DNA from: Alphaproteobacteria bacterium
GTDB lineage: Bacteria; Pseudomonadota; Alphaproteobacteria; Rhodospirillales; WMHbin7
NCBI GenBank assembly: GCA_015231795.1
Contig: JADGAX010000009.1
Coordinates: 1 to 64,000, forward strand
Direction of reading: 5' to 3'
Length of the DNA stretch: 64,000 nt
Shown here: piece by piece, positions 47,258 through 53,342 of the stretch
How positions within the stretch are numbered: position 1 is the first letter of the stretch
Layout: each line of letters opens with the position of its first letter
Program-made: the position numbers and the translations under genes
The notes under the pieces: model-generated
Told to the model about the DNA's origin: nothing
The model's database searches: none
The model's input: only the letters and a program-made list of their open reading frames with translations

Positions 47258-49876
47258 ATGAAAATTCGGCATATTCAGGTTTCCAAGGGCGTTCACTGGG
47301 TCGAGGTTCAAGACCGCGATCTCAGGATTCTATGCGGCTGTCCTGCAGATTCGGTCAAACATCTGATCAAGCGGGGCCTGATCGTTCCCCAGGCGGTCAA
47401 GGGCGTCGATTGCGAGACCGGCCCCAATACGATCCTATTGTCCGACCTGCCCTTGCAGAATGGCGAATTCGCCAATTTGGCCGAGTTTCCCGTTCTGCAG
47501 ATGCTTTACAAGCAGGGCATGATTTTGCCCAATCATCCCAACAATACCGGCAAACGCCCGATGCTGATCGGTCTGCCCGAGCAGGTGTCGGCGCAGATGC
47601 GCTACATTTACCGCGGCAATTACGGTCTGATCTCGAAGGAAGAGATCATGCAGGCCGGCTTCGGCGCCCAGCAAGCCGAAGCGATGATGCGCCTTAAGCT
47701 GAAATTCGCCTTCGGGCGCATCCGCCCGACCGAGGAATTCCTGGAATGGCGCATGCTGGACGACGACCCGGTCGAATTGGCCGAAGGCGTTGTCTTAAAG
47801 CGCCTGCGTTCCAACCTGTTCGAATTTTCCTTCGCAGACGAGAAGGTCGTCATCGACTTGAATCTCTCGCCCGAGGAAAGCTACGAGTCGGCGTATCCAT
47901 TGGGGTTTAGACGCTACTCGCCGGAATATTTCGCCGTCATCCATTCCGGCGAAGGCGACGGCTGGGACGTCAGCCGCCCCAGCATGTCGAGCATCATCAC
48001 CTATCAAGGGCGGCTGTACTTGATCGATGCCGGTCCCAACCTGTCGCACATTCTGGCCGCCCTGGGCATCGGCATCGATCAGATTGACGGCATCTTCCAC
48101 ACGCACGCCCATGACGACCACTTCGCGGGCCTGACCACCTTGATGCGCTCGGGGCACCGCATCCGCTATTTCTCGACGCCCCTGGTGCGCAGCACGGTGG
48201 CCAAGAAACTGGCCGCCCTGCTGGACACGGAAGAAGACCGCATCCTGCACGATTATTTCAAGGTGCATGATCTGGTCTTCGACCAGTGGAACGACATCGA
48301 TGGGCTTGAGGTCAAGCCGATCTTCTCGCCGCATCCGGTGGAAACCAACATCTTCATTTTCCGCTCCCTGTGGGGCGATAGCTATCGCAGCTACGCGCAT
48401 TTCGCCGACATCGTCTCCTTCGACGTGCTTGCGGGAATGGTTGCCGACGACGAGACGGCGCCCGGCCTAAGTCCCGCGGATTTCGAAGCCGTCAAGCAGG
48501 CCTATCTGACGCCCGCAGACGTCAAGAAAATCGACATCGGCGGCGGTCTTATCCATGGCGCCGCCAAGGATTTCAAGGCCGACCGGTCGGGGCGCATTCT
48601 GCTGGCGCACCGCTCGGGCGATCTGACGCCCGAAGAAAAGGAGATCGGCTCCAGCGCCGCTTTCGGCACGTCGGACGTGCTGATCGAAGGTCAGTCGGAA
48701 GGGTTGCGCCGCTTCGCCTATTCGCTGATGGAAAAGCATTTGGAAGGCGTTCCCGTCCATCATCTGAGAACGCTGCTGAACCACCCTGTAACCGATTTCA
48801 ATCCCGGCGCCATCTTCCTCAAGGAAGGTGACATGCCCGACGACATCATCCTGGTGCTTTCTGGAACGGTCGAAAAAATCCGCACCAAGGACGATGTGTA
48901 CGCCTTGCTATCGGCGGGTGCGCTGATCGGCGGCATGGCGGCCCTGACCAAGCGGCCGTCGCAGCACACTTACCGCGCGGTTTCCTTCGTGCAGGCGCTG
49001 CGCTTTCCCTTGGGTCTTTACGTCAGCGTGGTGCGCCACAACAAGCTGCTGGACAAGATGCAGGGCACGTTCGACCTGCGCAGCTTTCTGGAATCGACAA
49101 GCCTGTTCGGCGAGGGCATTCCCGCCGTCGTCATGAACCGCATGATCGAAGAGTCGAAGATCCACCATTTCAAGTCTGGCGAGATCATTCCCAGCGAGGA
49201 CATGGATGTCTTGAACCTGATCCGCAAGGGACGCGTCGAACGTTCGGCGGGCGGCGAGGTCATCGAGATGCTGGAGCGGCGCTCGCACTTTGGCGAGGAA
49301 GAGGCCATCTTCAAGGCCCCAGGGCAATTCCGCTTGAAGGCGGTCGAGGAAACGCAAGTCGTGCAGTTCCCCGGCGATTTGCTGGCCGATGTGCCGATCG
49401 TGCGCTGGAAACTGTTCGAGGGTTGGCAAAGGCGGGCCAAGCAGGCGGCGCACCAGTTAAGCCACAAGGGCAGCTTCATCAATTGGCGCGACACTTTCTC
49501 GGTGCGCATCGCCCACATGGACATGCATCACAAACGCCTGATCTCGATTGGCAACGCAGTGCTTGAGAATCTGCGCACCGACGGGCGGGGCGCCGCCCTC
49601 ATCAAAGCCGCCGAGGCGCTGGCCGATTACGTCGATTACCACTTTCAGGCAGAAGAAGATCTGATGGCGCTGTATGATTATCCGGGCATTGCCGAGCACA
49701 AGATCCGCCATCAAGATCTACGCCAGCAAGTGTCGCGCCTGACCAAGGAAATTCAGTCAGGCGCGCGGCCCAGCGAAAAGGATTTCAAACACCTGTTTGA
49801 ATCTTGGATCATCCATCATGTCCTGGGCGAGGACAAAGCCTATGGCGCCTTCCTGAATTCCAAGGGCATTTACTAG
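47258..49876 (+). CDS. Metallo-beta-lactamase, cyclic-nucleotide-binding and hemerythrin fusion protein
   Basis: 872 residues. Residues about 200-460 form a metallo-beta-lactamase fold with the metal motif HTHAHDDHFAGL (281-292). Two cNMP-binding-like beta rolls follow at about 505-600 (FNPGAIFLKEGDMPDDIILV) and 615-710 (IHHFKSGEIIPSEDMD). The C-terminal hemerythrin at 745-865 keeps the di-iron ligands in AHMDMHHKRL, VDYHFQAEEDLM, EHKIRHQDL and WIIHHVLGED. Soluble. It probably senses or binds oxygen through the hemerythrin and relays this to the hydrolase fold. Neighbours are OxyR and the rubrerythrin operon. Its stop overlaps the oxyR stop by 4 bases. Confidence 0.92.
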   Translation: MKIRHIQVSKGVHWVEVQDRDLRILCGCPADSVKHLIKRGLIVPQAVKGVDCETGPNTILLSDLPLQNGEFANLAEFPVLQMLYKQGMILPNHPNNTGKRPMLIGLPEQVSAQMRYIYRGNYGLISKEEIMQAGFGAQQAEAMMRLKLKFAFGRIRPTEEFLEWRMLDDDPVELAEGVVLKRLRSNLFEFSFADEKVVIDLNLSPEESYESAYPLGFRRYSPEYFAVIHSGEGDGWDVSRPSMSSIITYQGRLYLIDAGPNLSHILAALGIGIDQIDGIFHTHAHDDHFAGLTTLMRSGHRIRYFSTPLVRSTVAKKLAALLDTEEDRILHDYFKVHDLVFDQWNDIDGLEVKPIFSPHPVETNIFIFRSLWGDSYRSYAHFADIVSFDVLAGMVADDETAPGLSPADFEAVKQAYLTPADVKKIDIGGGLIHGAAKDFKADRSGRILLAHRSGDLTPEEKEIGSSAAFGTSDVLIEGQSEGLRRFAYSLMEKHLEGVPVHHLRTLLNHPVTDFNPGAIFLKEGDMPDDIILVLSGTVEKIRTKDDVYALLSAGALIGGMAALTKRPSQHTYRAVSFVQALRFPLGLYVSVVRHNKLLDKMQGTFDLRSFLESTSLFGEGIPAVVMNRMIEESKIHHFKSGEIIPSEDMDVLNLIRKGRVERSAGGEVIEMLERRSHFGEEEAIFKAPGQFRLKAVEETQVVQFPGDLLADVPIVRWKLFEGWQRRAKQAAHQLSHKGSFINWRDTFSVRIAHMDMHHKRLISIGNAVLENLRTDGRGAALIKAAEALADYVDYHFQAEEDLMALYDYPGIAEHKIRHQDLRQQVSRLTKEIQSGARPSEKDFKHLFESWIIHHVLGEDKAYGAFLNSKGIY

Positions 49877-50909: not shown

Positions 50910-51329
50910 ATGGCACAGCTCAAAGGCTCAAAGACGGAAGCCAATCTCAAGGCGGCCTTTGCGGGCGAATCGCAGGCCAATCGTCGATATCTCTATTTCG
51001 CGCAGAAAGCCGACATCGAAGGCTACAATGATGCGGCGGCGGTGTTCCGTTCGACGGCGGAGGGCGAGACCGGGCATGCGCACGGCCATCTCGAATTCAT
51101 GGAAGCGGTGGGCGATCCGGCCACCGGCCTGCCCATCGGGCCGACGTCGGACAATCTGAAGGCGGCGATTGCCGGTGAAACCCACGAATATACCGACATG
51201 TATCCGGGCATGGCCAAACAGGCCCGCGAGGAAGGGTTCGACGAAATCGCCGACTGGTTCGAAACGCTGGCCAAGGCGGAAAAATCGCATGCCGGACGTT
51301 TCCAGCGTTCGCTGACCGAACTGGGCTGA
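50910..51329 (+). CDS. Rubrerythrin (erythrin, without rubredoxin domain)
   Basis: 139 residues. Di-iron four-helix protein: [20 protein letters not shown] (ExxH-type helix), [23 protein letters not shown], and [14 protein letters not shown] supplying Glu and His ligands. The usual C-terminal rubredoxin is missing, so electrons must come from another protein, possibly the iron-sulfur protein encoded next. Peroxide reductase, cytoplasmic. RBS GAGGAGAG upstream of the ATG. First gene of a three-gene operon divergent from oxyR. Confidence 0.95.
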
Positions 51330-51400
51330 GAGGACCTTGAAAGGCCGGGAAGCAAGTCTTCCCGGCCTCTCCTTCAACGCATACGGAAAGAGGAAGCCAC

Positions 51401-52753
51401 ATGTCCGAAGGCAGCTTGCAACGGCCGTTTCGAAAGCCGATTCCCTGGCGGGACGCCGATTTCACCGATCCCGTGAAACTGGACCTTGAATTGCGCCGCC
51501 AGTTCGACATCTGCCACGGTTGCAGGCGTTGCTTCAATCTGTGCGAGAGCTTCCCCAAGCTGTTCGACCTGATAGATGCCGCGAAAACCGGCGAGCTGGA
51601 CAGTGTGGACAGCCAAGATTTCAAGCCAGTCGTCGATGCCTGCACCCTGTGCGACATGTGCTTCATGACCAAATGCCCCTATGTGCCGCCGCACGAATTC
51701 GACATCGACATACCGCATTTGATGTTGCGCTATCGGGTGGCTCAGGCCAAGGCGGGCGAGATCGGATTTGCGCATCGCCAGCTGACCGAGACCGACCGCA
51801 ACGGCAAGCTGAACAGCGGCGCCTTGTCGGGCGTGGTGAACTGGGCCTCGTCATGCAAGAACCATGTGACGCGTCCTGCGATGCAAGCAGCGCTTGGCGT
51901 CGACAAAAAGGCGGATCTGCCGAAATTCACCAACAGAACGCTGGTCAGGCAAGCCGCCGAGGAGCCGCTTCAGGTCAATCGCGACGCCCCGGCCTTTGGC
52001 CGCAAGGCGGTGATCTACGCCACCTGTTTCGCCAATTACAATCAGCCCGAGATCGGTCTGGCGGCCAGGCAGGTGCTGGCCGTCAACGGCGTCGAGACCA
52101 AGGTCGTCTACCCTGAATGCTGCGGCATGCCGCAACTGGAAACCGGACAGATCGAGCGCGTGGCTGAAAAGGCCAAGCGCGTCGCCGCAGAGATGGGCCA
52201 ATATATCGACCAGGGCTGGGATATCGTGGCGTTGGTGCCGTCATGCGCGCTGATGCTGAAATTCGAATGGCCCCTCATCGTGCCTGGCGACCCTGCGGTC
52301 GAGAAACTGGCGGCCTCCACCTTCGACATTCCGCAATATGTGATGGCGATTGCCCGCAAGGAAGGCATGGCGCCCGGGCTGAAGCCGGTTGTTGGCGGCG
52401 TTACGGTGCATATCGCCTGTCACGCCAGGGCGCAGAATATGGGCCGCAAGGCCGAAGAGATGTTGAAGCTGATCCCCGAAACCGACGTGTCGGTCATCGA
52501 GCGTTGCTCGGGCCATGGCGGTGCCTGGGGCATCATGAAAGGCAATTTCGACGTGGCGCTCAAGGTCGGCAAGCCGGTGGCCAAGCAGGCCAAGGAAAAG
52601 GGCAACGGCATCGTCGTTTCGGAATGTCCCCTGGCCAGATCGCACATTCTTCAGGGGATCGAGCAAGAAGGCGGCGAAACGGGGGCGATCTTGAACTTCA
52701 CGCATCCGATTCAAATTCTGGCGCATGCTTATGGAATGCAGGGAGGAAAGTAA
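51401..52753 (+). CDS. Heterodisulfide-reductase-related iron-sulfur protein (CCG domains)
   Basis: 450 residues. The N-terminal ferredoxin-like module has two 4Fe-4S motifs: CHGCRRCFNLC and CTLCDMCFMTKCP. Two CCG-type domains follow: YPECCGMPQLETG, and HIACHARAQNMGRKAEEM with ERCSGHGG. This is the GlpC/HdrB-like group that regularly accompanies rubrerythrin and DUF3501 genes. A role as electron donor to the rubredoxin-less rubrerythrin is plausible by context, not proven. Confidence 0.92.
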   Translation: MSEGSLQRPFRKPIPWRDADFTDPVKLDLELRRQFDICHGCRRCFNLCESFPKLFDLIDAAKTGELDSVDSQDFKPVVDACTLCDMCFMTKCPYVPPHEFDIDIPHLMLRYRVAQAKAGEIGFAHRQLTETDRNGKLNSGALSGVVNWASSCKNHVTRPAMQAALGVDKKADLPKFTNRTLVRQAAEEPLQVNRDAPAFGRKAVIYATCFANYNQPEIGLAARQVLAVNGVETKVVYPECCGMPQLETGQIERVAEKAKRVAAEMGQYIDQGWDIVALVPSCALMLKFEWPLIVPGDPAVEKLAASTFDIPQYVMAIARKEGMAPGLKPVVGGVTVHIACHARAQNMGRKAEEMLKLIPETDVSVIERCSGHGGAWGIMKGNFDVALKVGKPVAKQAKEKGNGIVVSECPLARSHILQGIEQEGGETGAILNFTHPIQILAHAYGMQGGK

Positions 52754-52754
52754 G

Positions 52755-53342
52755 ATGGCGAAAAAGCAGATCACAGCCGCCGACATCTTGCCGCTCGAGG
52801 CCTATGGAAGCCAGCGCAAGCAGCACAGAGCGAGCATGGTCGACATGAAGAAGAGCCGCCGCCTAGCCGTAGGTCCGCACGCTACCTTCCATTTCGAGAA
52901 TTTCGACACCATGCTCTATCAGGTCCATGAAATGCTGTGGACCGAGAAGGGCGGGGCGGAACAGTTGAAGGACGAGCTTGCAGCCTATAATCCTCTGGTG
53001 CCCAATGGCGCCGAACTGGTGGCGACCTTCATGCTGGAATACGAGGATCCGGACAGGCGGGCGCAGGCCCTGTTGGGGCTGGGCGGCATCGAAGAGACGA
53101 TCTCGCTGCAAATCGCCGAGCAGCGCATCGCGGCCAGTTGGGAACAAGAGGTGGAGCGCACGACGCCGGATGGCAAAACGTCGTCCATCCATTTTCTGCA
53201 TTTTTCCATGTCGCCGGAAGCCCGTCGCCTGTTCAAGACGCCGGGCGCCAAGGCGGTTCTGGCGGTCGAGCACCCGAACTACGCCCATATGGCGGTGATT
53301 CCCGAACATGTGCGGGCGGCGCTGGCGGGCGATCTTGAATGA
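52755..53342 (+). CDS. DUF3501 family protein
   Basis: 195 residues from the ATG at 52755, one base after the upstream stop. Family sequence: ADILPLEAYGSQRKQHRASM, VGPHATFHFENFDTMLYQVH, EMLWTEKGGAEQLKDELAAY, and HPNYAHMAVIPEHVRAAL. Function unknown, but the trio rubrerythrin, CCG protein, DUF3501 is conserved in many bacteria, so it is probably part of the peroxide-reduction complex. Confidence 0.92.
   Translation: MAKKQITAADILPLEAYGSQRKQHRASMVDMKKSRRLAVGPHATFHFENFDTMLYQVHEMLWTEKGGAEQLKDELAAYNPLVPNGAELVATFMLEYEDPDRRAQALLGLGGIEETISLQIAEQRIAASWEQEVERTTPDGKTSSIHFLHFSMSPEARRLFKTPGAKAVLAVEHPNYAHMAVIPEHVRAALAGDLE

Follow-up and report, generated by a model that had tools for sequence, protein, structure and literature searches.

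A bacterial fusion of two metallo-β-lactamase-type halves, tandem cNMP-type rolls and hemerythrin as a candidate oxygen- or redox-gated phosphodiesterase

Introduction

Several described systems each resemble a part of the protein considered here. In Bhr-DGC, Bhr-HD-GYP and the chemoreceptor DcrH, a diiron hemerythrin with seven conserved ligands is fused to a signalling output (PMC9388753). Class II cyclic-nucleotide phosphodiesterases, such as Apyc1, YhfI and yeast PDE1, have a metallo-β-lactamase (MBL) fold with an HxHxDH motif, motifs III, IV and V and a GG-x-His element. In tRNase Z-long, the human representative of which is ELAC2, an inactive amino-terminal MBL half is fused to an active carboxy-terminal half, an arrangement reported from eukaryotes only (PMC3714273). 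Finally, the tandem cyclic-nucleotide-binding domains (CNBDs) of PKA and PKG consist of two consecutive cNMP-type rolls. Trypanosomatid PKA has lost the arginine that binds the cyclic phosphate and is controlled by nucleosides rather than cAMP, and CNBDs without this arginine can bind nucleosides (PMC10959531).

Here we describe a gene in a 64,000-nucleotide stretch of DNA from an alphaproteobacterium of the Rhodospirillales (the window), the product of which shares features with all of these systems but departs from each. Whereas the outputs of Bhr-DGC, Bhr-HD-GYP and DcrH are c-di-GMP enzymes or chemoreceptors, the output attached to hemerythrin here is an MBL-type hydrolase. Apyc1 is a stand-alone homodimer, but in our structural model the partner is predicted to be a fused, metal-free pseudo-MBL, to which rolls and a sensor are added. 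Identity to tRNase Z-long is only ~13% and the active half is nearer to Apyc1, with scores for tRNase Z models far below their cut-off. Unlike those of PKA and PKG, the rolls lack the cyclic-phosphate arginine and are attached to a hydrolase, not to a kinase. A text search of the open-access literature returned no description of this fusion architecture, and the main text of reviews of hemerythrin architectures makes no mention of fusions to lactamase or cNMP domains.

Results and Discussion

Domain architecture of the fusion protein

The open reading frame (47258..49876, plus strand, as are all features of the protein given below) is intact and encodes 872 residues from an ATG codon, arranged as a pseudo-MBL half, a catalytic MBL domain, two rolls and a hemerythrin. 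The original prediction, made from the sequence alone, described a fusion of four domains, an MBL followed by a pair of cNMP-type rolls and a hemerythrin. Pfam and NCBIfam models recovered all four in that order, with the two rolls lying between MBL and hemerythrin, but a fifth part, residues 1 to ~205, had been overlooked. The domain fusion is real and not a product of chance. AlphaFold2 modelled the full-length protein with a mean pLDDT of 88.8 and a pTM of 0.83, and residues 1-481 with values of 92.5 and 0.92, respectively. The anatomy was defined on an alignment of 28 sequences, and residue conservation was counted in 108 non-redundant relatives.

A constant core is combined with interchangeable sensor modules

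The core, comprising the pseudo-MBL, the MBL and the two rolls, occurs in relatives alone, with a C-terminal hemerythrin, behind a receiver, with both receiver and hemerythrin (L076), or behind a periplasmic-type solute-binding domain (SBP_bac_3) and a transmembrane segment. Hemerythrin is present in 51 members of the 108-member set and no module was found in 36, while a scan of N-terminal extensions (n=31) found REC in 13 and SBP_bac_3 in 12. At five loci the receiver versions are encoded directly downstream of hybrid histidine kinases (L117, L121) or of REC-Hpt proteins (L135, L136, L137); in addition, L074 follows a HAMP-SpoIIE gene and CheW is encoded near L135. Mapping of module labels on the core tree required at least 18 changes, compared with a mean of 48 when labels were shuffled; a single origin is possible for the SBP form, and hemerythrin has switched several times. 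Since the inputs swap around a constant core, we regard the core as an output enzyme of signal transduction. As about half of the relatives are without hemerythrin, control by oxygen is not a property of the family.

Relatives were found in Rhodospirillales, Magnetococcales, Betaproteobacteria, Gammaproteobacteria, Desulfobacterales, Bacteriovoracales and Campylobacterota, together with one spirochaete and one Nitrospinia metagenome-assembled genome (MAG). The distribution is patchy: of the genomes sampled in the class, 5 of 289 have a relative, as do 4 of 247 in the phylum to which one Desulfobacteraceae relative belongs. In another phylum sample, which includes the Magnetococcales MAG of L033, recognised by its identical coordinates, 56 of 398 genomes carry the core, often in 2-4 copies and mostly within one group of families; the core is abundant in Magnetococcales. 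Complete matches cover both MBL halves, the shorter ones being fragments. No plasmid matched the fusion. One relative (97% identical) is from Rhodospirillaceae bacterium LM-1, and a second full-length copy with 50% identity and all hemerythrin ligands lies on another contig of the host genome (L002, G000:C19:5356-7956). The presence of this catalytic core behind different sensors in many bacteria points to a kind of signal-output enzyme that has drawn little notice.

Some relatives have individual features. In L104, L107 and their relatives, fusion of periplasmic SBP_bac_3 and a transmembrane segment to the MBL core gives an apparent membrane sensor with a hydrolase output. The N-terminal extensions of L114, L132, L138 and L139 were assigned no domain, although those of L132 and L138 could be degenerate receivers, and L129 has a C-terminal tail beyond its hemerythrin. 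L024 owes its long open frame (1166 aa) to an upstream extension in which no domain was recognised.

The catalytic half resembles class II phosphodiesterases

The catalytic MBL domain (residues 224-477; 47927..48688) was delimited as class II phosphodiesterase-like by structural, profile and hhalign matches to Apyc1; the Pfam Lactamase_B match covers residues 241-298 (E 8e-11). Its proposed metal ligands had been predicted to be intact, with ligand loss in an alignment named as the sign that would speak against this, and no such loss was seen. The four ligands H283, H285, D287 and H288 of the HAHDDH motif (an HxHxDH motif, residues 283-288; 48104..48121), H359 of motif III (48332..48334), D384 of motif IV (48407..48409), H433 within GGGLIHG (48554..48556) and H451 of motif V (48608..48610) are invariant in all 108 relatives. 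The complete HxHxDH motif together with the motif III and V histidines and the motif IV aspartate identifies the domain as an MBL-fold hydrolase of the HxHxDH type, and all eight residues align with the corresponding Apyc1 motifs, H433 with GGVHA and H451 with FLMH.

The best structural matches of this half were the Apyc1 entries 7u2r, 7u2s and 7t28, with Z-scores of ~25 in the full model (for 7u2r, 25.2 with an rmsd of 2.6 Å over 220 residues) and 23-24 in the model of residues 1-481. These were followed by the GMP/AMP-bound structures 3md7 and 3qh8, PhnP-family 6b9v, YhfI, PqqB and RNase Z, with RNase J also among the matches. Differences in Z of less than 1 were counted as ties, and Apyc1 leads the profile search too, with an E-value of 1e-7 to 7u2s and an hhalign value of 98.4% to the Apyc1 set. 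The score for the Apyc1 family PF23023, at 21.9 bits, missed the gathering score of 50 bits. With HxHxDH intact, class II phosphodiesterases as nearest structures and the hemerythrin ligands complete, the part of the original prediction that proposed an oxygen-gated hydrolase is plausible, in the form of gating by oxygen or redox state.

The MBL fold is common to RNase Z, PqqB, PhnP and an arylsulfatase and does not, therefore, fix the substrate. Four class III nucleotide cyclases are encoded in the host genome, and hence cyclic nucleotides are probably made there. The same modular evidence (swaps of receiver, SBP and hemerythrin, and kinase-linked loci) would also suit a sensor-gated output acting on some other signalling phosphodiester, such as a cyclic dinucleotide, a cyclic ribose phosphate, an AMPylated protein or a further metabolite. 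The phosphodiesters accepted by MBLs, those of the PhnP type among them, are varied, and a 2025 paper describes RNase Z as a deAMPylase (PMC12663964). However, the closest matches and the GMP and AMP bound in 3md7 and 3qh8 point to mononucleotides, and we consider a different phosphodiester rather unlikely, although it is the strongest of the alternatives.

The N-terminal half models as a degenerate MBL

Residues 1 to ~205 are conserved at least as strongly as the MBL domain, although no Pfam model matches anywhere in residues 1-240. In the structural model this region (residues 1-205; 47258..47872) appears as a degenerate second MBL, with a Foldseek query TM-score of 0.55 to 8rr1_E. Human ELAC2 aligns over model residues 1-477 (Z ~20, 368-380 residues). 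This exceeds by ~150 residues what the active half could contribute by itself, and the N-terminal region therefore sits where the inactive amino half of ELAC2 does. Comparison of sequences found no similarity of this half to MBLs, as hhalign to the active-half and Apyc1 sets gave a probability of <1% and its profile matched no PDB sequence; its kinship to MBLs is, therefore, a prediction of the structural model. Following the β4 strand in the model, the position of HxHxDH reads DLPLQN (residues 63-68; 47444..47461), a region without a metal-ligand pattern in which Q67 is invariant in the 108 relatives, and consequently no metal site is expected there.

In Apyc1 from SBSphiJ, E74 follows the sequence HADHIGGL and Y112 ends SLKGGLRY. 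The active half of the fusion lacks conserved features at these positions, which are occupied by a variable T/P293 and by KKLAAL. In the N-terminal half, on the other hand, N73 and E76 are invariant, as are G120, G123 and L124 of the conserved loop RGNYGL (residues 119-124; 47612..47629), with Y122 present in 104 of the 108 relatives. We propose, with an uncertainty of a few positions in the equivalence, that N73, E76 and RGNYGL lie at roughly the positions of Apyc1 E74 and Y112, the loop being the putative functional counterpart of KGGLRY. Because Apyc1-like features are conserved in the N-terminal half and absent from the active half, the N-terminal half may take over the role of the partner subunit. 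This role in trans is suggested by position along the chain, and the arrangement predicted from the model is an intramolecular pseudo-dimer in place of the class II phosphodiesterase homodimer.

The likeness to tRNase Z-long raises the alternative that the catalytic half is an RNA nuclease and that hemerythrin couples RNA processing to oxygen. Alignment of ELAC2 across both halves and the presence of RNase Z and RNase J among the structural matches would be consistent with this, and RNase Z models do match weakly. No RNase Z in the host genome scored over the cut-off, the best partial match being at C1:369013-369768, and because no complete RNase Z was recognised elsewhere in that genome, a tRNA role would still be conceivable. 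Against this, the tRNase Z model TIGR02651 reached 39 bits against a cut-off of 292.95 and matched only residues 240-298 around the HxHxDH motif, Apyc1 ranks above RNase Z, and sensor fusions and kinase-linked genes fit a small-molecule signal better. An RNA nuclease is therefore unlikely.

The tandem rolls lack the canonical cyclic-phosphate arginine

Pfam cNMP_binding matched twice (E 1.5e-17; PF00027, 63.8 bits against a cut-off of 27.5), and the top Foldseek matches of the rolls are tandem CNBDs of PKA and PKG, including trypanosomatid PKAR. Roll 1 (residues 500-612; 48755..49093) and roll 2 with its exit helix (residues 613-735; 49094..49462) were placed by Pfam, alignment to SthK and column counts, and for roll 2 also by the model. 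Gating by nucleotides, as originally predicted, is weakened by the state of the phosphate-binding cassettes. The arginine is replaced by S568 in roll 1 and by G689 in roll 2, being present in 8 and 10 of the 108 relatives, respectively, a departure from the canonical CNBD; the glutamate is replaced by G559 in roll 1 and kept as E680 in roll 2 (99 of 108 relatives). Since both rolls are without the arginine, canonical gating by cAMP or cGMP is unlikely, while the precedent of trypanosomatid PKA makes another ligand possible. We find it distinctly improbable that the rolls are working cyclic-nucleotide sensors, responding to cAMP or cGMP and providing, for example, feedback by the enzyme's own substrate. 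The fold, the retention of E680, the behaviour of arginine-less trypanosomatid CNBDs and the retention of the roll 1 arginine in Bacteriovoracales speak for it, but the arginine has gone from both rolls here and from >90% of relatives, and the roll 1 glutamate is lost too. In the Bacteriovoracales relatives L052, L053 and L055, roll 1 retains the canonical cassette arginine (EPRKKT), unlike most relatives, and these proteins may still bind cyclic nucleotides.

The hemerythrin retains a complete set of iron ligands

The C-terminal domain (residues 738-872; 49469..49873) passed the NCBIfam cut-offs for bacteriohemerythrin (NF033749, 108.7 bits against 84; TIGR02481, 98.7 against 51.75), with the Pfam Hemerythrin match at residues 751-863 (E 5e-12), and superposes on DcrH-Hr (2avk) with a Z-score of 19.4 and an rmsd of 1.7 Å over 132 residues. 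As predicted, its iron ligands are intact: H758, H795, E799, H814, H818, H854 and D859 make up the full complement of five histidines, one glutamate and one aspartate. All seven are kept in 46 of the 51 hemerythrin-bearing relatives, the other five having lost one or two. The suggestion of an oxidoreductase found no support, and an O2 or NO reductase of the flavodiiron/ODP type, for which one could cite the MBL fold, the diiron hemerythrin and a host genome rich in hemerythrins (~21 further matches beyond the fusion gene and its second copy), is highly improbable, because the motif is HxHxDH and not HxExDH, with histidine as second ligand in all 108 relatives, there is no flavodoxin or rubredoxin domain, neither Pfam nor NCBIfam gave a flavodiiron or ODP match, and the nearest structures are phosphodiesterases.

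A model for the fusion protein

The explanation that we favour, in which we place about even confidence, is that the fusion is an O2- or redox-gated enzyme with an Apyc1-like phosphodiesterase output and the pseudo-MBL as a built-in dimer partner. The protein would be a cytoplasmic output enzyme of signal transduction, the catalytic unit of which is a two-metal, class II-type phosphodiesterase. The degenerate N-terminal MBL, having lost its metal site, would serve as a fixed partner that replaces the homodimer and probably, by analogy with Apyc1 protomers, gives substrate-contacting residues in trans. The rolls may relay conformational change or bind a ligand other than a cyclic phosphate, and the diiron hemerythrin would bind O2 or switch redox state and thereby gate hydrolysis, the likeliest substrate being a cyclic mononucleotide or some other small phosphodiester. 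We infer the phosphodiesterase activity, the substrate, the residues in trans and the direction of oxygen control from the comparisons above.

More tentatively, and with less confidence than in the reading for this one protein, the family may represent an undescribed class of bacterial output enzyme, a one-chain pseudo-dimeric MBL phosphodiesterase of tRNase Z-long-like build in which a metal-free half donates catalytic residues and which degrades a second messenger under interchangeable hemerythrin, receiver or solute-binding sensors, with several copies per genome in magnetotactic Magnetococcales. If so, it would be a modular output used like GGDEF or HD-GYP but built on an MBL phosphodiesterase, and would form a direct biochemical link between an oxygen, phosphorelay or periplasmic input and the hydrolysis of a signal that may be a cyclic nucleotide. 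It would occur chiefly in microaerophilic and magnetotactic lineages, whose way of life depends on locating oxygen gradients, and would give bacteria a counterpart to the fusion of an inactive with an active half that has been described from eukaryotes only.

Genomic neighbourhood

The fusion gene does lie beside oxyR and rubrerythrin, as first noted, but oxyR is convergent to it, with a 4-bp tail-to-tail overlap. The adjacency of oxyR and rbr is common only to L009/L029 and L010, being absent in L030 and elsewhere. Because the arrangement is local to some members of the genus and oxyR is convergent, this neighbourhood says little on function. Clustering of neighbours over 30 loci revealed no widely conserved partner, and scans for promoters and terminators gave site numbers no higher than those in shuffled sequences. 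The oxyR product scored 244.8, below the cut-off of 329, and retains a GHC...C pair of the kind typical of OxyR. Divergent from oxyR, and conserved in L029, genes for rubrerythrin, a CCG-domain Fe-S protein (GlpC-like, below cut-off) and DUF3501 stand in a row (50910-53342, plus strand) and resemble an operon for oxidative stress. A GNAT acetyltransferase is encoded beside a TacA-type antitoxin (PF08681; 46157-46959, minus strand) immediately upstream of the fusion gene, a probable TacA-TacT toxin-antitoxin pair that was not seen in the flanking sequence covered for L029, the relative with 97% identity.
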